Below are positions 4,174-24,686 of a DNA stretch of 24,686 nucleotides, in pieces (position 1 is the first letter of the stretch; each line of letters begins with the position of its first letter). Location: IMG/VR virus record IMGVR_UViG_3300047362_001285, positions 1-24,686 of that record; one strand, given 5' to 3'. The notes beneath the pieces are model-generated. The model was not told where the DNA came from. It searched no databases and saw nothing but the letters and a program-made list of their open reading frames with translations. The translations under genes and the position numbers were made by a program. The DNA comes from a virus.

Positions 4174-4803
4174 TTAGTTTATTTTAATAATATGTCCACC
4201 TGCTTGAAAATTTGGTACGATTAAACGCTCAACCAGGCTTAGCTCGTCTGGATGTATAAATGCAGAACCAAACACTAATCTCTCTGTGAGATTACCGGTG
4301 AATTCTTCAGGTATATGCCAATCTCCAGCATCAAATACTACTGCTCTACCAGGTTTATTTTTAATTAACGTCGCCTCTTGCATAAATTTTCTTTTATTTG
4401 TGCCAGCTGGAGTATTTAATCTTGTAGGTTTATAATTTTTTCCTTCACTAAAATATGTACCACCGCCCCATTCATTATTCCACTCATAATTCAAATAAAT
4501 TAAAATACGTTTTACTTTACCGTTAATTTGTTCTATAGCATCAGAAGTAAAATCTTGGTGTGGTAGCATAGTAGGTTTGTCTGGTACAAATCTAAATATA
4601 AATCTTAAATCGTGCCAACGATACCAATCTTTGTAAATGTGATTATAATGAGATAATATTTTTTCAGATATTTTTTTATCTTTTAAATATGCATCATGTA
4701 ATAATCTTTTTGCAGTATCTTTGTGGCTATAATCATATTTTTGTTGAGTAAATTCTAAATTGTTAAGAAATTCTACATCTTCAATATCGAATACTTCTAT
4801 CAT
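4174..4803 (-). CDS. 2-oxoglutarate/Fe(II)-dependent oxygenase
   Basis: A 209-aa protein with the facial triad of the 2OG-Fe(II) dioxygenase superfamily: His82 and Asp84 in PHQDFTSD, His163 in DAGDWHIPEE, and Arg175 in NLTERLVFGS as the expected 2-oxoglutarate anchor. The GGGTYF segment at about 113-118 fits the core jelly-roll strand of prolyl-hydroxylase-like members. Such enzymes hydroxylate proteins, lipids or small molecules; the substrate here is unknown. The start at 4803 is chosen because ATGA overlaps the stop of the ketoacyl synthase gene; a start nine codons upstream would lie inside that gene. As last gene of the envelope/lipid operon it may act on a product of that pathway, which is inference. 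Confidence 0.85.
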   Translation of the reverse strand: MIEVFDIEDVEFLNNLEFTQQKYDYSHKDTAKRLLHDAYLKDKKISEKILSHYNHIYKDWYRWHDLRFIFRFVPDKPTMLPHQDFTSDAIEQINGKVKRILIYLNYEWNNEWGGGTYFSEGKNYKPTRLNTPAGTNKRKFMQEATLIKNKPGRAVVFDAGDWHIPEEFTGNLTERLVFGSAFIHPDELSLVERLIVPNFQAGGHIIKIN

Positions 4804-5942
4804 GCTGAACCTATAACTAATGATGCACACTTACCACCAAAGCCAAAAGAATTATTCATTACAAAATCAACATTTGTTTTAAGAGGAGATCTTACTACAT
4901 TTTCATATTCTGTATTTATGCAGTTGTAAGTATGCGGTATAATATTATGTTGTATTGATAAAATAGAATAAATTGTTTCTAAAATACCAGCAGCAGCAAA
5001 CGTATGACCAATCTTTCCTTTGTTTGAAGTAACTAATAAATCGCCTATATCTTGAATAGCTTCATATTCTACTTTATCTCCAACTGGAGTTGATGTGCCA
5101 TGGGCATTTACATAATCTACAGTATCTACTTCTGCATTATCTAAAGCCTTATTCATGACAATTCTTGCTCCGCTTCCGCTTGGATTTGTACGGTCAAATG
5201 CATCAGAGGCATGTGCAACTGGATATAACCATGCGTGAATTCTTGCACCGCGAGCAATAGCCTTCTCTTCACTTTCTAATATCATACATCCGCCGCCTTC
5301 ACCCATAACAAATCCATCACGATTATTATCGAATGGCATAGATTTATTACCTAATGCCCGTAAACTAGAAAATACTTCTAAATCAACCTCATTAATTCCG
5401 TTATCTGAACCACCGCAGATTACATAATCATATTCATCAATAAATCTCATTGCTATATCAATACTAACGATACCAGTTGCACACGCTGCTTGAGCTGCAA
5501 AATTGACGCCAGTAGTTCCATAATATTGTGATATTAAACTTGCTGCTGAATCACATGGTTGATTCAATGCTTTTAACGGATGCATTCTTTCTCTGATAAC
5601 CATATCAAACAAACCGTTTTTACTACAGCACGTAGAATAAAAAACTCCTACATTTTCACTAATATCAATTTTAGAATCTAATAAAGCTTGATGAGTGCTA
5701 TGTAATGCATAGCACATAGATCTAGGCATATTTTTTAATAGCTTAGTGTTAAAATCTTCTGGATAAATATTTTCACTGGTAGGGATATGGCAATTATTTA
5801 CTTTGATTTGTTTACGCGGTACGACAATATCTTCAAAGGGTTTATCGTATGAATTATTATCTAATAAGTTATCGAAACATTGGACAGAATTATTGCCCAA
5901 TGCATCGATCATACCAATACCTGTAACGGCTACTCTTTTCAT
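4800..5942 (-). CDS. Beta-ketoacyl-[ACP] synthase, KAS I/II (FabB/FabF) type
   Basis: A 380-aa condensing enzyme that would extend acyl-ACP by two carbons with malonyl-ACP. The catalytic triad is visible: Cys154 in QAACATGIVS, His281 in NAHGTSTPVGD and His313 in SNKGKIGHTFAAAG, with Lys308 at the family's conserved lysine position. The C-terminal NNSFGFGG (363-370) is the KAS gating loop. The N-terminus (RVAVTGIGMIDALG) is also family-typical. It is slightly shorter than bacterial FabF (about 412 aa). It overlaps neighbours on both sides by 4 nt (ATGA), so it is coupled to the lipoprotein and the oxygenase. Such a gene is rare in phages. A polyketide-type condensing enzyme is the alternative, since no chain-length factor or ACP gene is nearby. 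Confidence 0.93.
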   Translation of the reverse strand: MKRVAVTGIGMIDALGNNSVQCFDNLLDNNSYDKPFEDIVVPRKQIKVNNCHIPTSENIYPEDFNTKLLKNMPRSMCYALHSTHQALLDSKIDISENVGVFYSTCCSKNGLFDMVIRERMHPLKALNQPCDSAASLISQYYGTTGVNFAAQAACATGIVSIDIAMRFIDEYDYVICGGSDNGINEVDLEVFSSLRALGNKSMPFDNNRDGFVMGEGGGCMILESEEKAIARGARIHAWLYPVAHASDAFDRTNPSGSGARIVMNKALDNAEVDTVDYVNAHGTSTPVGDKVEYEAIQDIGDLLVTSNKGKIGHTFAAAGILETIYSILSIQHNIIPHTYNCINTEYENVVRSPLKTNVDFVMNNSFGFGGKCASLVIGSA

Positions 5943-6565
5943 GAATCGGCAAGCACCTCTAGTTCTTTAAGATCGGCTTCGTTTTGAGTTTCGACATTAT
6001 TATCGAGTTCTTTCCAAGCTTGAGTAGATCTAAGCTTTGATAGTAATGCAGCATTTTTAGCTACTCGAGTTCGAATAACATTTGCAGCAACTTCATTGCG
6101 ATACTCAAGCAAAACGTATGATCGATATTGTGTGCCGTTTTGTACGATTACATTTTCTTTAATTGTGTAACCAGCAACGTCAGCATCTGCAATAAGATTA
6201 CGCGTAACTTGTTCAAACTCAACAGCAACATTAGAATCAAAATCAGTAGCACCTAATTTTGATTTAAACGTTTTAAGCTGAGATCGAATACGACTATCAA
6301 CACGATCAGCGAGAGTGGTCTTAGCTGATAGTACTGCGATATCTACTGCGAGTTGAAGATCTGGTGTGACTGCAGTACCAACTGCATATACAGCGTCATC
6401 TTCTTTTGGGATATTTGTATACCACTTAGGCATATCATCAATTTGTTTTTCGACTTGTTCAGTACGATATTCAAATTCTTTTTCAGACATTACCAAATTT
6501 GGTGGTAATTTATCACTACATGCAGATAGACCTAATACACCTGCCATTAACAAAACACTTCTCAT
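5939..6565 (-). CDS. LPP20-like lipoprotein
   Basis: A 208-aa lipoprotein starting MRSVLLMAGVLGLSAC, a classic signal peptide with a lipobox (LSAC) and lipidated Cys16, so it would be anchored in the host envelope. The body (PKWYTNIP, AVYAVGTAV, then LADRVDSRIRSQL and a VLLEYR strand) resembles the LPP20 lipoprotein family. The start at 6565 is preferred over an in-frame ATG at 6577 because that upstream ATG is part of the TGGAG ribosome-binding site. It starts one base after the 42-aa gene stops and overlaps the ketoacyl synthase start by 4 nt. Phage-encoded lipoproteins often alter envelope properties or block superinfection; neither is shown here. Confidence 0.82.
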   Translation of the reverse strand: MRSVLLMAGVLGLSACSDKLPPNLVMSEKEFEYRTEQVEKQIDDMPKWYTNIPKEDDAVYAVGTAVTPDLQLAVDIAVLSAKTTLADRVDSRIRSQLKTFKSKLGATDFDSNVAVEFEQVTRNLIADADVAGYTIKENVIVQNGTQYRSYVLLEYRNEVAANVIRTRVAKNAALLSKLRSTQAWKELDNNVETQNEADLKELEVLADS

Positions 6566-6566
6566 T

Positions 6567-6695
6567 TTATACTCCATTTAATCCATCAACAATAAAGTCT
6601 CTCAAACCAGAATCGACAAATAGATTCTGCATATCTGGGAAAAACACTGTCATACCTATACCTATAACAATTCCCAAGCACATATTAATCATCAT
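6567..6695 (-). CDS. Mini membrane protein (42 aa)
   Basis: ATG at 6695 with AGGAG four bases upstream; 42 codons then TAA. The N-terminal 20 residues are hydrophobic and Gly/Ile-rich (CLGIVIGIGMTVFF), a probable single transmembrane helix, followed by a short polar tail ending DFIVDGLNGV. Both ends are coupled: ATGA overlap with the upstream exported protein, and a one-base gap to the lipoprotein start. The tight fit between genes is the main evidence that it is real. Function is unknown. Confidence 0.72.
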   Translation of the reverse strand: MMINMCLGIVIGIGMTVFFPDMQNLFVDSGLRDFIVDGLNGV

Positions 6696-8304: not shown

Positions 8305-8381
8305 TGGCGATTCCGGTAGGATTCGAACCCACGACCCACAGCTTAGAAGGCTGTTGCTCTATCCATCTGAGCTACGGAACC
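8305..8381 (-). tRNA. tRNA-Arg (anticodon UCU), CCA encoded
   Basis: The cloverleaf folds by eye: acceptor GGTTCCG pairs with CGGAATC (one G-U), discriminator G, encoded CCA at 8307-8305. The D arm is TAGCTCAGATGGATAGAGC, the anticodon loop CTTCTAA gives anticodon TCT, and the T arm contains GGTTCGAATCC. It reads AGA (and AGG by wobble), codons favoured in AT-rich phage genes but often rare in hosts. It is transcribed with the neighbouring small genes, so its 5' and 3' ends must be processed from a longer RNA. Confidence 0.96.
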
Positions 8382-9310: not shown

Positions 9311-10114
9311 TTAATTTATTCGAAATAAATCTGGTAAATTCATCCATTCTTTCCAATTAGTAGCATAAGCTTCTTCATAATCGAACATAATTTCTATTGA
9401 CTCTATATATTCTATTCTTTCAGGAGGAGTAGAAGAACTATAACCAACATCAATCAGACCCCAAGATCTTGGTTTAATATTATTATTTGCGCACCACTTT
9501 TCAGCCTTTGAATCAAATGGCTTATGTTTATCGTGGGCATATATGATTGTAAAGTCTGCAGACCAATGAGATTGATTAACAATCTTTTCTGCAAATGAGT
9601 CGTTATCATGATATATGTCATACATAGGTTTACCTACGTGGCAATAATTAATACAAACTGTACCAGGTTTTTGGTTAAAATTAAATCTCGCTTGCATTGA
9701 TTCATCTAATAAAAACTTATCAGGATTTTTAAAAGAACAGACAATGCGTTTACTATTAATACTTTCAAGATGGTGAATATTTACGTTATACTTAATAATG
9801 TTATCTTGTATTAATCGCGGAGCTTTATTAAAAAACTCTGGTTCCATCATTCTTTCGAAGTGTGTATGAAGCTCGTTTAGATCTTCAGTATCTGGTAAAT
9901 CTTCATAAAATTTTATAAGACCTACTGATTTGCGAAGTTTTTCATAAATTTTTTCATATGTTATTTCATCATTCAAACCATAAATTCTATCACGTTCCCA
10001 TATATTATTAATATTTTTTCTTACTTCATTGAACCATCTTTGACTTAGTTCATCATCGTATGGATATATGTCAATAGATTCATCATTATCAAATTTCAGT
10101 CTTAGATAATACAT
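9311..10114 (-). CDS. Unknown phage protein (267 aa) with multiple His/Asp clusters
   Basis: A soluble acidic protein without signal peptide or membrane segment. The first 65 residues are highly charged and helical; then come ELHTHFERMM, IHHLESIN, INYCHVGKPMYDIYHDND and IIYAHDKHKPFD, giving several His/Asp clusters that could hold a metal. I cannot assign it to a family. It is the last gene of the unit with the zincin, SWIM protein and desaturase, overlapping the desaturase by 26 nt, so a role linked to lipid modification is possible but unproven. Confidence 0.82.
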   Translation of the reverse strand: MYYLRLKFDNDESIDIYPYDDELSQRWFNEVRKNINNIWERDRIYGLNDEITYEKIYEKLRKSVGLIKFYEDLPDTEDLNELHTHFERMMEPEFFNKAPRLIQDNIIKYNVNIHHLESINSKRIVCSFKNPDKFLLDESMQARFNFNQKPGTVCINYCHVGKPMYDIYHDNDSFAEKIVNQSHWSADFTIIYAHDKHKPFDSKAEKWCANNNIKPRSWGLIDVGYSSSTPPERIEYIESIEIMFDYEEAYATNWKEWMNLPDLFRIN

Positions 10115-10937
10115 CTAATTTTTTGCCTTTAATTTCAATAACACCTATTTTGCCTAATAATTCCATAAATCTTGATGAATAATCTAACCAACCAGGATTA
10201 AAACTATACGCATATGGTTTAGCGTGGTGTTCCTCATGATACATACCTTCTGGATCTCCAAATGATAAAACCCACAAGTACCATGGAATGCTTCGTGTTT
10301 TAGCTTTTGTTTTATGAGCATAAGCATCAATAACACCTAATCCATGAAATTCTAAACAAGATGCTGCAGCTAAAACACTAAGGCCTTCTATACCGAAAAA
10401 AAGAATAATTAATGACCATAACGTAAAAGCAATGAATTTAGGGTAAAGACTGAAAACCCACAAATGTTTATAATTTTTTAATAAGTCGATATATATTTTT
10501 CTATTAAGTTGATCTTTATTTACTGTAGCACCCCATAAATGAAAATGTGCAGCAAACATACCAATCTGTGAAGGGCTATGTAGATCTAATTTATCGTCTA
10601 AGTGATCGTGATGTAATCTATGTGCAATTGCCCATTCAATAGGACCAGTTGGAAACATATGCCCAGAAACTGAAAGATATGAAGTTAGCAATACATCAAT
10701 TGTTTTACTTTTAAATTTCCAGTGACCATGAGAAATGCCCTTATGCAAAAATGAAGACACAGTAAAAGCTTGCAATTGAAACAAACCAAATGCAATAGCT
10801 AATAACCAGTATGCTTCATTCACGTAAATACTATTATAAAAGAAATATACAGTTAATACGTGAGTTGCGATTGCAATGAACAATCTCTCTGGATAATGCA
10901 AAAATTTAGGTAATATTTTTTTTAAGTTGATACCCAT
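10089..10937 (-). CDS. Membrane fatty-acid desaturase (delta-9/acyl-lipid type)
   Basis: A 282-aa di-iron integral membrane enzyme that would introduce a cis double bond into acyl chains using O2 and an electron donor. All three histidine boxes are present: HKGISH (65-70, HX4H), HRLHH (106-110, HXXHH) and HEEHH (234-238, HXXHH). A HGLGVIDAYAH segment lies at 198-208. Hydrophobic segments at about 17-37, 42-62, 80-95 and 165-205 fit the four-helix topology. The length suits bacterial acyl-CoA/acyl-lipid desaturases. No ferredoxin or reductase gene is nearby, so host electron donors would be needed. It overlaps both neighbours (16 and 26 nt) in the unit driven from 11582-11610. Confidence 0.93.
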   Translation of the reverse strand: MGINLKKILPKFLHYPERLFIAIATHVLTVYFFYNSIYVNEAYWLLAIAFGLFQLQAFTVSSFLHKGISHGHWKFKSKTIDVLLTSYLSVSGHMFPTGPIEWAIAHRLHHDHLDDKLDLHSPSQIGMFAAHFHLWGATVNKDQLNRKIYIDLLKNYKHLWVFSLYPKFIAFTLWSLIILFFGIEGLSVLAAASCLEFHGLGVIDAYAHKTKAKTRSIPWYLWVLSFGDPEGMYHEEHHAKPYAYSFNPGWLDYSSRFMELLGKIGVIEIKGKKLDVLSKTEI

Positions 10938-11146
10938 TTATTTGAAATTTCCTTTGTATGCTTACATTTTCCGTGTACTGCCATACCAATACATTCACAC
11001 GAAAAACCTTTATCTGTGAATACTACTGTATATTTATCACCGCGACTTCCAACAATAGAATATTCAATACCAACAGCCCAGTGGTTTTTGAAATTAATTT
11101 CTGGTATAGTAAGGTATTTATCTCTAAATTTACGCGACATACTCAT
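10922..11146 (-). CDS. SWIM-type zinc-finger mini protein (74 aa)
   Basis: Cys50 and Cys52 (CEC), eight residues, then Cys61-Lys-His63 match the SWIM zinc-finger consensus CxCxnCxH, with the preceding strands YTVVFTDKGFSCEC typical of the fold. SWIM fingers bind nucleic acids or proteins and are usually parts of larger proteins; a stand-alone 74-aa version is unusual. The basic N-terminus (SRKFRDKY) fits nucleic-acid contact. It overlaps the zincin by 17 nt and the desaturase by 16 nt. Confidence 0.78.
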   Translation of the reverse strand: MSMSRKFRDKYLTIPEINFKNHWAVGIEYSIVGSRGDKYTVVFTDKGFSCECIGMAVHGKCKHTKEISNKWVST

Positions 11147-11555
11147 ACTCCTTAAATAATTCTTCTTGTAAATAATATGCTTCAGCTTCCCACGGTTGGG
11201 CCATATACTCTTTTGTTGTACTCGTAATACAAATATATTCTACACCACACCAAGTTTTTGTACAAAATCCAGTGTCAATTAACTCTTTACGTGCACCTTG
11301 TTTGACATGTACAATCTCATGAAAAATTGCAGTAATCATATCATCTTCATCGATACCTTTTTGTATCTCAATTTCAAATGTACGGTTATCAACCTGTAAA
11401 CAATAACCGTCAACTGTGTCATAGATATTCTTAATCTCAATAGTAATATCTAATGTCTTCATGCGTGGCATAAGTTTGTGCACAGCAAATTCTGCAGCTT
11501 CTATACAAAGCTTACGTTCTTTTGCTGTACCACCAATTACTTCAATAATATTCAT
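11130..11555 (-). CDS. Zincin-like metalloprotease (HExxH)
   Basis: 141 aa with HEIVH at 79-83 in the helix MITAIFHEIVHVKQG, the catalytic zinc motif of gluzincin-type peptidases, and a downstream PWEAEAY (121-127) giving Glu123 as a likely third ligand. No signal peptide is present, so it should act in the cytoplasm. Small zincins of this kind occur in many phages with unknown targets. The ATG at 11555 follows GAGGAG at good spacing. First gene of the unit under promoter 11582-11610, hence probably early. Whether it is proteolytic or only structural is not determined by sequence. Confidence 0.8.
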   Translation of the reverse strand: MNIIEVIGGTAKERKLCIEAAEFAVHKLMPRMKTLDITIEIKNIYDTVDGYCLQVDNRTFEIEIQKGIDEDDMITAIFHEIVHVKQGARKELIDTGFCTKTWCGVEYICITSTTKEYMAQPWEAEAYYLQEELFKEYEYVA

Positions 11556-11619: not shown

Positions 11620-12243
11620 TTACTTATGAACTTCTATTTCGACATTATCTGATGGCTTAAACTTAAGCTTATCGTGTTTATGATGTAATACAAACTTAAC
11701 GCGGTGATGCTTACCGGTGCCATCAAAATCTTTAAACATATTTTTCCATAGTGGTCGCCAGTTATTTGCAAGACGATGGTTATTCATACCACCTCTATCA
11801 GAGTTTATAACAAGATCTGTGTAACTACGTAAATTAAAATCAAATATAGAATCAAATCCCCAAAGATGTACTTCATCAGCTTTTAATTTCTCACATGCAT
11901 AATAAGTTGCCATATGACCGCAATTCAAATCTGTATAGTTAGCAGCGTATTTAGGTAGTTTAGTATAGAATTCTTTAATTTGACCTGCAATTTGTAGATG
12001 AAATTTAGGATTTCTATTACAATATTCTTTTGGCCGTGCACCACAAATCCATTCTCCAGGTACTTGAATTTCTCCTTTATGAATAGTATTCATCATTTTA
12101 AAGTCTACAATACAAGTAGCATATACTCCTTCAACTTCAAACGGTGCCAAGTTACATGTAAGCTTGAGACCTTTTCTTTTTGGAACTTCATTATAAAATG
12201 CAGCTGAATCACCATTTCCAATTACTTGTACAATTCTTGGCAT
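11620..12243 (-). CDS. Rossmann-like protein, possible sugar or nucleotide transferase (207 aa)
   Basis: The N-terminus IVQVIGNGDSAAFY looks like a nucleotide-binding beta-loop-alpha start, and a later stretch CGHMATYYACEKLKADEV followed by HLWGFDS resembles the core of DUF115/MptE-like and GT42-type enzymes. The C-terminus is basic and His-rich (TGKHHRVKFVLHHKHDKLK). The match is by pattern only. It is the last gene of the glycan block and abuts the GT8-like gene with a TAATG overlap, which favours a role in glycan building. Unknown function remains possible. Confidence 0.55.
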   Translation of the reverse strand: MPRIVQVIGNGDSAAFYNEVPKRKGLKLTCNLAPFEVEGVYATCIVDFKMMNTIHKGEIQVPGEWICGARPKEYCNRNPKFHLQIAGQIKEFYTKLPKYAANYTDLNCGHMATYYACEKLKADEVHLWGFDSIFDFNLRSYTDLVINSDRGGMNNHRLANNWRPLWKNMFKDFDGTGKHHRVKFVLHHKHDKLKFKPSDNVEIEVHK

Positions 12244-12899
12244 TACATCATACTCCTAATTGTATCATTACCTTTTTCGCCAGTCCAATGCATAATTTTA
12301 ATTCTACCATTATAATTATCCTGTTCAACTTGCAACCGCATAACGTTATACTCATTTGGTAACGGATTAATATTAGCTAGCTGAGTAATTGGATTCAACA
12401 TAGAGTGCAACATTTCTTGATCACCAATATTTTGTTGAGCATGAACTACATTACACCATTGCGCTAATACAGTAGGTTTATCGATATAGCCTACAACACC
12501 AGAATTATACCAAACTTCGCCGCGGCGTTTAGTCCATGGTTTATCTTCAACCATATTTAACATATTTGGTTTTAGCATAGAAAACATATTGTCAATATTT
12601 GCTAGAACTTGGCAATCAGTATCTAACCATACAGCTCTTTTTGCTGGAACATGATACATGGATAATGGCTTTTTAAACCAGCCTCGTTCTTTACCTTTGG
12701 TATCCATAGTCATAATGGCTTCAACACAGGGGTGTTTTACTACTTTGTTCACCATATCTTGTGACATACCAAAATCTGTAATTATAATTTTTGTTTTATT
12801 TCTCTGTTTCTTGAAATTCTTAAGAAACCATGGCAACTGCCATTCAGTTTTATGGTCACAGCCAGTTACAAACAATTCATCTCTAATTTTCTTATTCAT
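12243..12899 (-). CDS. GT-A fold glycosyltransferase, family 8-like (218 aa)
   Basis: The DxD metal/nucleotide-sugar motif is D93-T-D95 in AVWLDTDCQVLANID; WYNSGVVGY, GDQEML and IMHWTG follow in the order seen in GT8-type enzymes. It probably transfers a hexose from an NDP-sugar; donor and acceptor are unknown. The start at 12899 (ATG, sharing one base with the preceding TGA) is preferred over an in-frame TTG one codon upstream. Soluble, no membrane segment. Part of the contiguous glycan block 11620-16355. Confidence 0.8.
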   Translation of the reverse strand: MNKKIRDELFVTGCDHKTEWQLPWFLKNFKKQRNKTKIIITDFGMSQDMVNKVVKHPCVEAIMTMDTKGKERGWFKKPLSMYHVPAKRAVWLDTDCQVLANIDNMFSMLKPNMLNMVEDKPWTKRRGEVWYNSGVVGYIDKPTVLAQWCNVVHAQQNIGDQEMLHSMLNPITQLANINPLPNEYNVMRLQVEQDNYNGRIKIMHWTGEKGNDTIRSMM

Positions 12900-13543
12900 C
12901 AAATAATCTCGTATGTTTCATCATATCTATGTTTAGCCAAGCAACCAGCTTCTTTTTGAATAGTAGTAAAAGAATCTGAAGCTATACAAATCCATGGATA
13001 TAATTCTTCTAGCCATGGAAATAAATTCAAATTCAAAAATACATCTGTTGGAGCTGCTTCTATTTTAGCTTTTTCCATTAACTCTTTAGCACCTTTTGGA
13101 CTTACTATATATCCATGTGCTCCACCGAAATATTGTTTTTGTACTAAACCATCAACTCCAATTTTCATTGGAGTATTAAATTTGCCATAAGATGGTTTTG
13201 AAAATGTAATTACTTTATTAAATTTAAAGTCTGTTGGTAATGAACCTGTAACTACAGCATCATGCTCGAAGATGATAATATCTTCATTTGTATCTACAGC
13301 TTTTTTCCATAAATTATAATGAGATAAAAATGCAGCAACAGTATTATCTAATCTAGAATATTTTTCTACAAATCCGTGGGGTGAAATACCTAATTTATGA
13401 ATTAATTCAATAGGTCTATCTGATGGTGTTATTGCTTTAAATTTTTCAATTGCAAATCCATACTTTTTTCCAGATTTAATGCATCTGTTAGCGGCTTGTA
13501 CTGATTTCTCAATTGACTCAATAGTAATTACAAAGGCTTTCAT
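12899..13543 (-). CDS. Glycosyltransferase family 25-like protein, copy A (214 aa)
   Basis: Begins MKAFVITIESIEKS, a GT25 (LPS-type beta-glycosyltransferase) start, with AFLSHYNLWKKA at 71-82 and the acidic motif E93-H-D95 at the place where GT25 enzymes usually have E(D/E)D. A GGAHGYIVSPKGAKEL segment also fits the family. It is paralogous to the next gene, which shares MKA(F/Y)VITI and SHYxLW. The middle His in the acidic motif is a deviation shared by both copies. It likely adds a sugar to a surface glycan; donor unknown. Confidence 0.8.
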   Translation of the reverse strand: MKAFVITIESIEKSVQAANRCIKSGKKYGFAIEKFKAITPSDRPIELIHKLGISPHGFVEKYSRLDNTVAAFLSHYNLWKKAVDTNEDIIIFEHDAVVTGSLPTDFKFNKVITFSKPSYGKFNTPMKIGVDGLVQKQYFGGAHGYIVSPKGAKELMEKAKIEAAPTDVFLNLNLFPWLEELYPWICIASDSFTTIQKEAGCLAKHRYDETYEII

Positions 13544-13545
13544 TT

Positions 13546-14241
13546 TTAATCCGTAGTAGTTGAAGGTAATCCTTGAACAAATGTATAATATTGCTTAGTC
13601 ACACCCATTCTTTTGACCAATTGTTTACACATAATTGCGTCATTAGGCCATAATCCATAATCTTCGACTGCAGCAATTACAGCACTAGCTCCTTTAGGTT
13701 TAATTATATATGCGCTGTTTCCAGCTAAACCCTGCGGAACATCGAATGAATCCACATTTGGAATTTTGCAGATGTCTGTCTTACAATTTTTTACAATTGA
13801 ATCAAACTGACGTGATCTACGAGTTGCACCAATAGGATCATTTAAACCAATAATATTATATTTTGATTGAAGGATATAATCAGGATTAAGTTTTTTTCTA
13901 AATTGTGCATCATGTTCTAATACTAAAATTGGTTCATTTTCATTTTGGCATTTTTGCCATAATCTATAATGACTTACTGCACACGAAACTCTTGCTAATG
14001 GATCTCTTGTTTGATACGCAGATAATCGTAATCCAGTTTTAAGACAAGTTTCTTCACCTTCCCATGGATAATCCCATTGAATTCCATAATCTGACATTAC
14101 TTCGCCGCAATCAATAGGTGTACTAGCTTCAAATTTTTCAATCGTAAAATCATTGCCTACTTGTTCAGATGAGGCTATACAATTTTCAGCTGCAGCTTCT
14201 GACAATGTATGACCTAATATTGTAATCACATATGCTTTCAT
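13546..14241 (-). CDS. Glycosyltransferase family 25-like protein, copy B (231 aa)
   Basis: A second GT25-like protein in tandem: MKAYVITILG at the start, AVSHYRLWQKC at about 88-98, acidic motif E109-H-D111, and NSAYIIKPKGASAV. Compared with copy A it has an insertion near residues 50-80. The arrangement suggests a duplication followed by divergence, perhaps for two successive linkages. It starts inside an ATGA overlap with the methyltransferase stop and is separated from copy A by two bases. Confidence 0.8.
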   Translation of the reverse strand: MKAYVITILGHTLSEAAAENCIASSEQVGNDFTIEKFEASTPIDCGEVMSDYGIQWDYPWEGEETCLKTGLRLSAYQTRDPLARVSCAVSHYRLWQKCQNENEPILVLEHDAQFRKKLNPDYILQSKYNIIGLNDPIGATRRSRQFDSIVKNCKTDICKIPNVDSFDVPQGLAGNSAYIIKPKGASAVIAAVEDYGLWPNDAIMCKQLVKRMGVTKQYYTFVQGLPSTTTD

Positions 14242-14870
14242 GATCTTAACTCAATGATATAACTATCTGGTTGTTTAGTTAATTTACGGTTATCATGTCG
14301 TAAAACTCTCAAGTCAGATTGCTCTAGTGCATTCAAGAACAGTTGATTATCCATAGAATTATATCGATCAGGATATCGTTGCAACCATTGATGTTCTAGT
14401 TCTTTATCATTCATTAATTCTAAAGGCCAAACATCTTCAATAAAATAAACACCTTCTTTTTTTAGCAATCTCTTAAGATTTAAAAAGGTTTCTTTATTTG
14501 CTGTTGGTGTATGCATACCATCATCAATGATAATATCAAACTTTACGGACTTACCAAACTTATCACGAATTTGTTTGTAAACTGTAGTGTCCATACTACT
14601 AGCTTTAATCCACTGTGTTCTATCTTTTTTATAACACTCGAGATCTTCTGGATTTGTGCGAGTAAAAATATCTAAACCATATAATTCAGCGTGTGGAAAA
14701 TATTCGTGCAAAGCCTCAGTGCTATGACCATTAAATACACCAATTTCTAAGATTCGCAAATCAGTTTTATTTTTTAGTTTTTTAAACACAGGTTCATAGA
14801 TTTTTTCGTATCGGTGTTTTCTAGTCTTATCACATCCATACTTATTAAATAGATTTCCGAGCTCACTCAT
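14238..14870 (-). CDS. Class I SAM-dependent methyltransferase (210 aa)
   Basis: Motif I LEIGVFNGHS (41-50) binds S-adenosylmethionine, with the acidic residue of motif II in GLDIF (about 65-69) and IIIDDGMH (113-120) as motif IV. The pattern resembles the sugar O-methyltransferases/cephalosporin-hydroxylase-like group acting in polysaccharide or antibiotic pathways. Its place between GT25 genes and a sulfotransferase makes a sugar O-methyltransferase the best guess. Overlaps: 8 nt with the sulfotransferase, 4 nt with GT25 copy B. Confidence 0.83.
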   Translation of the reverse strand: MSELGNLFNKYGCDKTRKHRYEKIYEPVFKKLKNKTDLRILEIGVFNGHSTEALHEYFPHAELYGLDIFTRTNPEDLECYKKDRTQWIKASSMDTTVYKQIRDKFGKSVKFDIIIDDGMHTPTANKETFLNLKRLLKKEGVYFIEDVWPLELMNDKELEHQWLQRYPDRYNSMDNQLFLNALEQSDLRVLRHDNRKLTKQPDSYIIELRS

Positions 14871-15567
14871 TATCTAGTCTCCAATAATTTTTAGTTGGTC
14901 CACTATCAAAATCAAATCCCCACATATCAATATCTTTTTTATACCAATCAGCAATGATTTGAATTGTTTCTTTGTTGTACATATCTTTATATGTACCCTC
15001 ATTCAAAGCGGTCACATTCCTATTTCGTCCCATCATAGGAATGTTAAAATATCTTATAAGATCTTCTTTCAAATGATCTAATCTTAGCATATCGCACACT
15101 AGTTTACCATTAGAATCGGTGACGTAATCAGCAGCCGGATACCACCCTCTGACTGCTCTATGCCACATATATTCTTTATCACCCCATTTATGACGCTCTT
15201 CTAGAAAAGCTTCAAACGATGAGGTATCAGCATATCCAGGATTTTGCTTTTTTTCAATTTCAATAACCTTTTTAGCAAAGAAATATCTTGAAACTACTCT
15301 ATCCCATGGATTACGAATAACTGCAAAAGCATCGTGTACCTTTGTAAATTTTTCATGAAGATCCACCCATCGTGCATGCTGAATGCCGTGATGATCTCCT
15401 AATTCTTTCATTGTTTTAAGTAAACCGTTTGTGTATTGTTTACTTTTGTGTATACGTGCATCAGCAGCAATAATATTATCTTTTACTAATAAACTATGCC
15501 TAACGGTCATACCAGCATTTTTTGGAATATGAATAAATATTTTTTTAGAAATGTCGCTTATGTTCAT
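14863..15567 (-). CDS. Sulfotransferase, carbohydrate-type (234 aa)
   Basis: Both PAPS-binding elements are present: the 5'-phosphosulfate loop IPKNAGMT (14-21) and the 3'-phosphate motif IRNPWDRVVSRYFF (84-97). They have the form of the sulfotransferase family 2 enzymes that sulfate sugars. No signal peptide, so it would act in the cytoplasm on nucleotide- or lipid-linked glycans. It requires PAPS from the host. Phage sulfotransferases are uncommon. It overlaps the GT8-like gene by 4 nt upstream and the methyltransferase by 8 nt downstream, so the set is translationally coupled. Confidence 0.87.
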   Translation of the reverse strand: MNISDISKKIFIHIPKNAGMTVRHSLLVKDNIIAADARIHKSKQYTNGLLKTMKELGDHHGIQHARWVDLHEKFTKVHDAFAVIRNPWDRVVSRYFFAKKVIEIEKKQNPGYADTSSFEAFLEERHKWGDKEYMWHRAVRGWYPAADYVTDSNGKLVCDMLRLDHLKEDLIRYFNIPMMGRNRNVTALNEGTYKDMYNKETIQIIADWYKKDIDMWGFDFDSGPTKNYWRLDNE

Positions 15568-16355
15568 ACTTTAGTCATTAGCTCCTTTACGTTTTCGCCC
15601 TTGTTTGGTAATTTGTCTTTTAAGAAAAAATGTACAAAGTTTGCTTCTTTTACCTTATCAGATTTAACTGCAGTAAAGAGAGCGTTCCATTTCCAATTGA
15701 GTCTTTGCACGTTCATACCGCATGTATTTACCCAGTAATTAAGTAACGTCTGATCTGTAGACCATTTCCATGGTCCTACACCATCAACGAATTGTTTAAA
15801 TTCTGATCTACGTATAAACTGTTCTGGCGTTTGATTATTAAGATATTTGGCAAATGACTTATTCATTACCATCATTCCCATATTCATAAATGGAAATCCA
15901 GTTTTATCGTTGTATTGACCATTCCATGCAGGAATCTTAAGAGTTCCGTATTGCATGCGAGAATACCCCAATATTTTTTGATTATACCATGGCTCAATTG
16001 GCATTTCGCTTTCAACCACACCGCCAAAATCTACATCAGCATCTATTTCTAAAAATATATCAGGTGCACCAGGACGAATCCAAATATCTGCATCAATGAT
16101 TGCAATTTGATCATAGTCTTTAAAATAAGAAAAGGCGTTTTCCTTCTCAAAGATTGGAAGAAAACCGCCATGTTTCTCGTAAGATTCTTTACTACGCCCT
16201 GTCATGAAGATGTCAGGTTTGATACGCAACTTAGGAACAGTTTGTATTACATGATCAATATCATGCGTATCGCAATATGCTTTTACTGATTTAATACAAT
16301 GATCATATAGTTTAGATTTCGCGCCTACTGCGACTTGATAAATCATTCTTTTCAT
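15564..16355 (-). CDS. GT-A fold glycosyltransferase (263 aa), first gene of the glycan block
   Basis: The DxD motif is D88-A-D90 in IAIIDADIWIRPGAP. FMNMGMMVMNKS and STDQTLLNYW correspond to the NxG and DQ motifs of GT8-like enzymes. It is not closely similar by eye to the other GT8-like protein at 12243, apart from these motifs. Soluble. The ATG at 16355 follows AGAGGTTATT. Donor and acceptor are unknown; the neighbours suggest it starts or extends a glycan that is then methylated and sulfated. Confidence 0.8.
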   Translation of the reverse strand: MKRMIYQVAVGAKSKLYDHCIKSVKAYCDTHDIDHVIQTVPKLRIKPDIFMTGRSKESYEKHGGFLPIFEKENAFSYFKDYDQIAIIDADIWIRPGAPDIFLEIDADVDFGGVVESEMPIEPWYNQKILGYSRMQYGTLKIPAWNGQYNDKTGFPFMNMGMMVMNKSFAKYLNNQTPEQFIRRSEFKQFVDGVGPWKWSTDQTLLNYWVNTCGMNVQRLNWKWNALFTAVKSDKVKEANFVHFFLKDKLPNKGENVKELMTKV

Positions 16356-16363
16356 AATAACCT

Positions 16364-16564
16364 CTAATAACGAAGTAGATAGTCCCAGTGGCCTTCAATT
16401 CTAATACAGACCCAATCTCGCTTCATAGTCCTAAAATCATACTTAAATTCTTGTTCAGTTTTTGCAAAATAACAATTATTCAAGCCTTCGAATATATCTA
16501 TACTTTCAGCAACTGGTTCACCATTAACGATAGTAACCATTACTAGTAACCACTTAACCATCAT
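16364..16564 (-). CDS. Small protein with N-terminal hydrophobic segment (66 aa)
   Basis: MMVKWLLVMVTIVNG is a short hydrophobic start that may be a signal anchor; the rest carries two Cys (NNCYFAKT, DWVCIRI) and an aromatic C-terminus. Both Cys could pair in the periplasm if exported. Function is unknown. It overlaps the EF-hand gene by 4 nt (ATGA). Resembles small envelope proteins of marine phages in style only. Confidence 0.7.
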   Translation of the reverse strand: MMVKWLLVMVTIVNGEPVAESIDIFEGLNNCYFAKTEQEFKYDFRTMKRDWVCIRIEGHWDYLLRY

Positions 16565-16908
16565 TTTTTAGGTGATGGTTTTTTACCCTTTACGGCATCT
16601 GCACCAAAAAATGCAGCAACCAATACAGAAATAGATACAAAATATGTTGGAGCAATATCGCTAATTAATTCTGCAGCTTTATCTTGACCAGCTAAAGTTG
16701 TAATTAAAATAATTGCTGGATATAATAGCATTCCGAATAATGCAAACCATGTCATTTTTCTCATGGCATCTCTTTGTGCATCGGCATCCTCAAGTTCTTT
16801 TCTTTTAAACTCAAGATGCATTTCAAGTTCTTTAGGACTGATATGACCATCACCATTGGTATCAGCTTCATCCAGTCCACTCACTGTTTTTACAGTCGTC
16901 TCTGACAT
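16561..16908 (-). CDS. EF-hand protein with two transmembrane helices (115 aa)
   Basis: From ATG 16908 (GGAG seven bases upstream) the protein has one canonical EF-hand loop, DTNGDGHISPKE at 16-27, with all calcium-ligand positions intact; a charged helix (HLEFKRKELEDADAQRDAM); then two hydrophobic helices at about 54-73 and 85-104 and a Lys-rich tail. I recall similar proteins as conserved hypotheticals in marine T4-like phages. A holin or Ca2+-sensing membrane role is possible but unproven. Upstream in-frame codons were not used because they lie in the 77-aa gene and lack a ribosome-binding site. Confidence 0.82.
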   Translation of the reverse strand: MSETTVKTVSGLDEADTNGDGHISPKELEMHLEFKRKELEDADAQRDAMRKMTWFALFGMLLYPAIILITTLAGQDKAAELISDIAPTYFVSISVLVAAFFGADAVKGKKPSPKK

Positions 16909-17101
16909 TTTCGTACTCCGTAATGATTGCTTCAGCAATCTCCATAGCTTCTCTGAAATCATTACGAAGTGAATTGGATCTATGTCCATTTTCAACAAAA
17001 TGCTTTAGACTATATATATCAGAACCGTACGAATCAAGTTTGAATTCTTCAGTAATTTGTTCAAACCTTGTACGAAGATTCATCATTTCAGTTAGTGACA
17101 T
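16868..17101 (-). CDS. Hypothetical phage protein (77 aa)
   Basis: An acidic helical protein (NLRTRFEQITEEFKLDSY, then DFREAMEIAEAIITEYENV) with no recognised motif. Start ATG 17101 overlaps the nucleotidase stop by 10 nt and has AAAGGGC upstream; a second ATG six codons later is possible. It overlaps the EF-hand start by 41 nt. Confidence 0.72.
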   Translation of the reverse strand: MSLTEMMNLRTRFEQITEEFKLDSYGSDIYSLKHFVENGHRSNSLRNDFREAMEIAEAIITEYENVRDDCKNSEWTG

Positions 17102-22932: not shown

Positions 22933-23080
22933 TTTGCTCTAATATCTCCTGTTTACGTTGATCGTCACAGTAAAACCATTCTCTAATCTCATTAGAAGAA
23001 CGACCACAGCCTTCGCAATGGTCGTCCTCTATTTGACACACCTTTATACAAGGTGATGGAATACTAGAAATCGATTTCAC
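22871..23080 (-). CDS. DUF1289-like cysteine-rich protein (69 aa)
   Basis: The motif SPCIKVCQIEDDHCEGCGRS followed by NEIREWFYCDDQRKQEIL is the signature of the DUF1289 family, small zinc/iron-type Cys proteins common in proteobacteria. The probable start is GTG 23080, three bases after GGTGGAG, overlapping the nrdJ end by 17 nt; an ATG at 23122 is also in frame but lies deeper in nrdJ without a ribosome-binding site. Coupling to nrdJ hints at a role alongside the reductase, such as redox or metal support, but this is inference. Confidence 0.8.
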   Translation of the reverse strand: MKSISSIPSPCIKVCQIEDDHCEGCGRSSNEIREWFYCDDQRKQEILEQSGKRIPDRMRGVRIDNDCTG

Positions 23081-24686
23081 AGGCTCCACCTGCACACGCA
23101 GCTGCTGCAAGAGTATCAACATCTGTAAATTTTTGTTGAGTCAAATCTGTTTTCCAATTTACTGGTTTTAGATTTTGCTGAATCTTATTCCATTTATGCA
23201 AAAGATATGCATCTTTCAAACAATGCTCTGCTTTTTTCATATCACCTTTAAAATAATTATTAGCGAAGTTTTCATAACGACGAATCCAGTCTTGTCTTGC
23301 TGAATTCTCTGCAGACTCGAGACTAATATCAAGACCAAACCCTTGAGCCGTTGAACAAGCATCCCACAAATTAGGGAATACTTTAATTGCATCAACGACA
23401 AGACCTGAAGCAAAAATGGCAGCAGTGCCGTATTCTTTTACCATTTTCTTTTCGTCAATCACTGCAGTGTTTGGCGCTTGATTATAGTCTTTATCACCTG
23501 TTGGCGATAAGAATGAAATACCTGAAAAAGAATAACGATTCTCAAACACATATTTTTCTACTTCATCCCAATCATCTACAATAATAGTATTTGATACGTT
23601 ATGACGAATACCTTTATCGGCACATAGTTCTTCATTAGTACCAGCAATAACCCAATGCTTTTGAGCTTTTGCTACTAATTCTAAATGTTTTACGCCATAT
23701 AGATCATCTTTATACATTGAACCTTTCTTTGGAACAATCGGAAACGACACCACAACATCAGTTCCGTTAGCAGACCATACTGACTCTTCAACCATATACG
23801 GATTAGTTTTTGTAATTGCTTGAGTAATTTCAGATTCTTTATTCATTTGTACGTTGCGGATGTACAAACTAGAATGTTCGGCATGAATTCCACTTGCTGT
23901 TTGGAGTAACACTGAAGCGTTGCCAGATGGTTTAACGCAAGTAGTACGAGCAGCAGCATTAATCCCGATAATGGCAGCAACTTCTTTGTTAGTTTCTTTA
24001 ACAATCTTTGCTCCTTTTTGAAGAACCTTTTCGTCAAACAATACTTTTGGATTATTCATCCAACCAGTAATAGAAACACCGAGCAATGCTTCTCTGTCAA
24101 AGATCTTCTTCGATACAGGACTTAAGAATTCAAAGTCAGTATAACCTGCTTGCAGAGTTCCAAGAATTGCTCCTGCTCTACACGCCTTATAGAAGTCTTC
24201 TTCAGTATGACATTTACCGCCATTAATTTCTGTTAGGTTACAACCTTGCCAACCTGATTCTCCCTCATATTGTGGGAACATACCAATCTCGACACACGGA
24301 TTAGTAGTGTGTTCTTTTGATGTAGTAAAGTAAAAGCCAGGCTCACCGAATGATTTGACTGATTCCATAATCTTTGCAAACATTTCAGGAGTTGCTTCAT
24401 CGCGGACGATTACTGCTGAGTTGTTTGAACGTCCACGCTGTGGATTGTCCATAAACCAGTTACCAGTTTTTGCTGTCATCATCTCATCGTCTTCTGGAGA
24501 GAATAAGCAAATAGTTGCAGAACGACGAACACCGCCAGAAAGAACTGCATCAGCTGCATGCATGCAAATATCATAAACCATTAAAGGACTAATATTAACA
24601 GTGTCTTTTGAATCAATCACCTTTGCTTGAAGCATGTGTTCAATCTTGTCAAGTGATTTACGTAAACCTTCTGGACCAGGAGCTTT
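23064..24686 (-). CDS. nrdJ: Class II (adenosylcobalamin-dependent) ribonucleotide reductase, C-terminal 540 residues
   Basis: The frame continues without stop to the window edge, so the N-terminal part lies outside. Visible are SGGVRRSATICLF, HTTNPCVEIGMFP (N, C and E of the radical site), a CNLTEING segment, GYTDFEFLSPVSKKI, TTCVKPSGNASVLL and a C-terminal redox pair, Cys-x4-Cys, in CAGGACEIDF. The pattern fits the monomeric B12-dependent triphosphate reductase (NrdJ/RTPR). It supplies dNTPs for phage DNA and needs host cobalamin. It is first in the visible order and is followed by DUF1289, the zinc ribbon and the nuclease without a visible promoter between. Confidence 0.9.
   Translation of the reverse strand, partial: KAPGPEGLRKSLDKIEHMLQAKVIDSKDTVNISPLMVYDICMHAADAVLSGGVRRSATICLFSPEDDEMMTAKTGNWFMDNPQRGRSNNSAVIVRDEATPEMFAKIMESVKSFGEPGFYFTTSKEHTTNPCVEIGMFPQYEGESGWQGCNLTEINGGKCHTEEDFYKACRAGAILGTLQAGYTDFEFLSPVSKKIFDREALLGVSITGWMNNPKVLFDEKVLQKGAKIVKETNKEVAAIIGINAAARTTCVKPSGNASVLLQTASGIHAEHSSLYIRNVQMNKESEITQAITKTNPYMVEESVWSANGTDVVVSFPIVPKKGSMYKDDLYGVKHLELVAKAQKHWVIAGTNEELCADKGIRHNVSNTIIVDDWDEVEKYVFENRYSFSGISFLSPTGDKDYNQAPNTAVIDEKKMVKEYGTAAIFASGLVVDAIKVFPNLWDACSTAQGFGLDISLESAENSARQDWIRRYENFANNYFKGDMKKAEHCLKDAYLLHKWNKIQQNLKPVNWKTDLTQQKFTDVDTLAAAACAGGACEIDF

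Follow-up and report, generated by a model that had tools for sequence, protein, structure and literature searches.

A T4-like phage appears to carry a fatty-acid module, composed of an SCD1-like desaturase and a FabF-like synthase, that raises the unsaturation of acyl chains in the membranes of infected cells; we give this reading a probability of roughly 0.7. In the mechanism we propose, acyl chains carried by the host acyl carrier protein would be lengthened by the synthase during infection. With O2 and with electrons supplied by the host, for instance through ferredoxin, the desaturase would introduce a double bond into acyl chains of the host. Membranes that the infected cell makes or remodels could then come to contain more unsaturated chains. 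The position of the double bond, the acyl carrier, the source of the electrons, and what the phage gains are parts of the scheme that we infer. Both genes lie in the window, i.e., the stretch of DNA that was analyzed, which is the whole virus record of 24,686 bases and sets the extent to which the genome was seen (Table 1). A previous sequence-only reading of this DNA had pointed out the desaturase, whose coordinates it gave correctly, and had overlooked its potential lipid partner, an intact beta-ketoacyl-ACP synthase in the same window.

Table 1. Location in the window of the desaturase, of its metal-site motifs, and of the genes at the synthase
Feature	Position	Strand	Description or evidence
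SCD1-like membrane diiron desaturase ORF	10089..10937	-	282 aa; ORF, profile, fold, dN/dS
Histidine box 1, HKGISH, aa 65-70	10728..10745	-	both His in 98/98 aligned rows
Histidine box 2, HRLHH, aa 106-110	10608..10622	-	three His in 98/98 aligned rows
DxxxH (D204-H208), equivalent of SCD1 NxxxH, Asn to Asp	10314..10328	-	profile alignment to SCD1 NSAAH
Histidine box 3, HEEHH, aa 234-238	10224..10238	-	three His in 98/98 aligned rows
Beta-ketoacyl-ACP synthase (FabF-like)	4800..5942	-	380 aa; PF00109 + PF02801
2OG-Fe(II) oxygenase-like ORF	4174..4830	-	PF13640, 27.1 bits, cut-off 27; overlaps synthase
Lipoprotein-like ORF, LSAC lipobox by eye	5939..6577	-	4-nt overlap with synthase start

The desaturase ORF has a purine-rich AAAGGA just before its start. 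It is a minus-strand gene, the opposite strand being full of stops. Its product has histidine boxes of the types HxxxxH, HxxHH, and HxxHH, in this order, and all three are intact, as had been claimed. The boxes, whose loss in relatives had been named as the counterevidence to this reading, are kept in relatives with 92%, 69%, and 51-52% identity. The hydropathy profile has single peaks at aa 19-37 and 45-63 and a double-length peak at aa 161-197, and the long helices of the predicted structure span aa 16-39, 44-69, and 166-206. Together, they fit four membrane passes, as in SCD1, in agreement with the four helices previously read from the hydrophobic pattern.

Single-sequence searches gave weak scores. 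A plain hmmscan of the window protein against Pfam reported no desaturase family, and NCBIfam gave only 19 bits for a DesA model. A targeted search gave 24.5 bits (E 2.2e-7) for PF00487 (FA_desaturase); since this is below the curated cut-off of 29.7 bits, we do not claim membership of this family by score. The same family is matched by 52 of the 65 aligned relatives (E 0.001). A Pfam match to an O-antigen polymerase (16 bits for a cut-off of 26.6) was rejected as a match between hydrophobic helices. Searches of the desaturase with tblastn found nothing at E 1e-5 among 50,697 phage records, with one chance-level match at E 10, and nothing useful among annotated phages and plasmids. Hence, the relatives were taken from IMG/VR, starting with the close copies (L001, L002, L003, L004, and L005) and continuing with a wider set. 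The three-box motif is present in at least 120 IMG/VR contigs.

The profile of 65 sequences matches SCD1 (4YMK) with an E value of 7.6e-53 and also matches 4ZYO; the E values for mouse and human SCD1 are below 1e-51. An AlphaFold (AF2) model made on the same alignment has a pLDDT of 89.3 and a pTM of 0.87 and was used throughout, a three-sequence model (pLDDT 38) having been discarded. In Foldseek, where PDB matches below rank 4 were taken as noise except for known histidine-box enzymes, the model matches SCD1 with an E value of 7e-7 and a TM of 0.71. The comparison with SCD1 reaches a Z of 21, with an rmsd of 3.4-3.9 over 258-263 residues, and the next structure has a Z of 10. Evidence from the profile and from the fold is not fully independent, because the predicted model rests on the 65-sequence alignment. 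The likeness to SCD1 (PDB 4YMK, 4ZYO, and 6WF2) thus concerns the fold over nearly the whole chain and the nine histidines at the iron-ligand positions, which include the isolated H208 and are invariant in 98 aligned rows. In contrast, the window protein is only 17-19% identical to SCD1 and has an Asp for the Asn of NxxxH; the loop that follows DxxxH is shorter, box 3 is preceded by three additional residues, and nothing points to CoA substrates. The dN/dS of the desaturase (Nei-Gojobori) is 0.054 between the window and L002 and 0.167 between the window and L003, the larger values being approximate because dS is 0.6-1.25 for the desaturase and synthase pairs. Such values, 0.05-0.17, indicate selection to keep the protein. 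The profile, the fold, and the ligands support the membrane-desaturase reading, and the gene probably encodes a functional phage enzyme that places double bonds in fatty acids, a catalytic activity that we infer from the sequence and the predicted model.

The two genes are not neighbors: 4.1 kb separate the desaturase from the synthase. Like FabF (beta-ketoacyl-ACP synthase II, TIGR03150), which is its best NCBIfam model, the synthase has both ketoacyl-synthase domains and the catalytic Cys-His-His plus Lys (C154, H281, K308, and H313), which are invariant in 10 phage synthases. Unlike FabF, it scores 259 bits for an equivalog cut-off of 494, and we therefore file it as a member of the ketoacyl synthase family and not as a FabF equivalog. 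It belongs to a phage family found in at least 194 IMG/VR contigs. Its dN/dS (Nei-Gojobori) is 0.036-0.165, and the low values of the desaturase and the synthase imply that both genes are under constraint. Two other genes adjoin the synthase, and their belonging to the lipid module is uncertain. The 2OG-Fe(II) oxygenase-like ORF was found again only in L003 and L005. The lipoprotein-like ORF, which has no match in Pfam, adjoins the synthase in L003, L005, and L202.

The two genes recur together. A desaturase-family gene, recognized by its score with the desaturase profile, is present in 37 of 45 phage loci that were chosen by the synthase alone and had at least 6 kb upstream and at least 1 kb downstream, the query and alignment of the synthase having been seeded from loci found through desaturases. 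The relative position varies: the desaturase is 2.3-7.8 kb upstream of the synthase in some backgrounds and 1.8-4.0 kb downstream in others, where some of the partners are of a different subfamily that also resembles fatty acid hydroxylases. Among loci chosen by an unrelated neighbor gene, found at 11620-12243 in the window, and with at least 7.5 kb downstream of it, both genes are present in 4, the desaturase alone in 1, the synthase alone in 0, and neither of the two in 40 (Fisher p 3e-5); these tests of co-occurrence ignore the relatedness of the loci, many of which are near-copies. No further gene family was common across backgrounds when we compared the 26 loci with both genes.

The immediate surroundings of the desaturase are compact, as stated by the sequence-only reading, which described it as flanked by overlapping phage genes: it shares 16 nt with the upstream ORF (10922-11146) and 26 nt with the downstream one (9311-10114). 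The latter, of 267 aa, was considered as a further desaturase and rejected. A short version of 86 aa is found in L002 (8800-9060), as if the middle was missing. L002 is also without the 74-aa ORF beside the desaturase, and in L202 a second desaturase occupies the spot beside the first. By eye, the ORF at 10922-11146 (minus strand) has a SWIM-like CxC..CxH motif and the one at 11130-11555 (minus strand) has a HEIVH metallopeptidase motif; the second matches PHROG 10499, whose function is not annotated.

How would such an enzyme obtain its electrons? It had been stated that no donor is encoded nearby, and this stands: neither the window nor any of 13 related phage records (46-333 kb, most of them perhaps fragments) yielded a Fer2 or Cyt-b5 domain. 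An acyl-carrier-type domain (PP-binding) was found in only one of these 14 records. Hence, host electron donors and the host acyl carrier protein are likely used. The supply by the host that had been deduced from the missing donors is, for its part, compatible with the data.

One residue near the metal site distinguishes the window protein and its closest relatives. Four residues before the isolated H208, an Asp (D204) is found in 11 of 11 rows of the window subclade; the other 87 rows have no Asp there, and 83 of them share the Asn of SCD1. The 11 rows represent approximately six distinct proteins, with 36-100% identity to the window protein, since some are the same contigs twice. Because the Asn is common but not universal (4 of the 87 rows are without it), D204 does not exclude membership in the SCD1-like family. 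Tandem desaturases occur in L202 (7971-9522) and L273 (4621-6295), where the first gene has Asp at this position and the second Asn. H208 is the equivalent of H265 of SCD1 in the profile alignment. The mouse enzyme has a center of nine histidines, of which five bind Fe1 and the other four, including H265, bind Fe2 (PMC10359943). In the hydroxylase AlkB, the four-histidine iron has a Glu nearby, where a water molecule is found in SCD1; differences of this kind may affect reactivity, according to the authors (PMC10110569).

D204 may contact the metal. Its carboxylate, if bound to the iron or close to it, could modify the diiron center and change its oxidation chemistry or its reactivity with O2, which together with the synthase could result in a non-host acyl chain, an outcome that we regard as unlikely. 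We hold in the same low esteem the related idea that the protein is a membrane diiron oxidase and not a plain desaturase, its carboxylate shifting the reaction toward hydroxylation or other oxidation of the acyl chain. This idea draws on the role of H265 at Fe2, on the precedent of AlkB, and on the distribution of the Asp, which does not occur outside the window subclade and persists in members as distant as 36% identity, the tandem paralogue of L202 and L273 having retained the Asn. However, the overall match is to SCD1. AlkB and Scs7p are also membrane diiron enzymes with histidine boxes, but their fold matches to the window model are much weaker (Z of 6-7 for AlkB and of 5 for the Scs7p hydroxylase), and a single N-to-D substitution may be neutral.

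Other explanations concern the purpose of the genes. The module could tailor the acyl chains of a special product, such as an LPS lipid or a lipoprotein, resulting in a surface change or in phage exclusion. A cassette at 12243-16355 (minus strand), upstream of the desaturase, would suit this purpose: it has LPS-type glycosyltransferases (two GT25 and two GT8), a sulfotransferase, and a methyltransferase, and probably serves the modification of surface or virion sugars. The overlap between the lipoprotein-like ORF and the synthase goes in the same direction. Yet the pair of synthase and desaturase does not depend on the sugar cassette, because it is found without it in other phage backgrounds, and we consider this explanation rather improbable, somewhat more so than a change in chemistry caused by D204. 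The desaturase could also be a passive or decaying acquisition without function, as its patchy distribution might suggest. Among 69 phage loci with the same neighbor gene (11620-12243) and at least 2.5 kb downstream of it, 7 carry the desaturase, which is therefore an accessory gene and not, as had been proposed, a fixed part of the genome. A dN/dS of 0.05-0.17, nine invariant histidines, and an intact overlapping ORF are nevertheless so difficult to reconcile with decay that we give this explanation hardly any credit.

The reading that we prefer, a phage module raising the acyl unsaturation of the infected cell, is set in a clear phage context. The window encodes a gp32-like ssDNA-binding protein (PF08804, PHROG 224), PhoH, and a tape-measure-like tail-type protein, and by its gene content it is a T4-like phage. 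The gp32 protein is closest to that of Phage C48C1 (58%), followed by those of Methylophilales phages and cyanophages. In a tree of 128 rows (quick method, SH-aLRT), the window clade joins both desaturases of L202 (99) and then L141, L203, and L214 (98), all of them from phages, with the bacterial panel elsewhere. Given the phage neighbors and the phage-only desaturase clade, we rejected bacterial contamination. Phylogeny had been proposed as the way to find the donor lineage, and it revealed none: the protein nests in phage desaturases, and a bacterial donor sought in 398 Pseudomonadota genomes and in a motif-selected panel, itself without identified host genomes, yielded distant family members only. 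A tRNA-Arg(TCT) at 8305-8381 (minus strand) shares 94% identity, across 63 nt, with its counterpart in Pelagibacter phage Mosig, a possible clue to the host. The ORF at 23064-24635 (minus strand) resembles class II (B12-type) ribonucleotide reductases, with a best phage match of 61% to Rhizobium phage RHph_I1_18, and the one at 16561-16998 (minus strand) is membrane-like, with a calcium-binding loop of the EF-hand type.

Lipid desaturases of cyanophages were reportedly the subject of Roitman et al. 2018. Fatty acid desaturases of phages from Arctic brine and sea ice have three boxes, a model based on 4ZYO, a proposed role in membrane fluidity, and signs of purifying selection (PMC7300359). The window gene is likewise phage-borne and has three boxes, a likeness of description; a residue such as D204 goes unmentioned in the text consulted. 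The freshwater pelagimyophages PMP-D, which are SAR11 phages with Fonsibacter-like tRNAs, have among their unique genes fabF, a stearoyl-CoA desaturase, and a 2OGFeDO protein, between which the passage that lists them draws no link (PMC7029224). The window has the same three kinds of genes, a likeness of gene lists. Unlike the window, PMP-D also carries speH, and L205 and L216, with their S-adenosylmethionine (AdoMet) decarboxylase, look closer to it. In these two loci (approximately 8.9-16.6 kb), the decarboxylase and an amidinotransferase-like ORF lie between or after the desaturase and the synthase. The same stretch has several related 2OG-oxygenase-like ORFs by eye, two of which were tested and have no Pfam match. 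Phage desaturases (PMC7300359) and the presence of fabF and a desaturase in freshwater SAR11 phages (PMC7029224) are already published. As far as the compared literature shows, what is new relative to the published phage desaturases is the Asp subclade and the recurrent pairing of synthase and desaturase.

The N-to-D substitution, kept across the subclade and accompanied by Asn in the tandem paralogue, provides a natural comparison for the role of the residue that neighbors the second iron. Discussions of phage desaturases usually treat them as lone genes for membrane fluidity. Here, a desaturase and a phage condensing enzyme recur in several backgrounds, which suggests that some phages seize two steps of acyl-chain building, and the two enzymes form a pair that is testable together.
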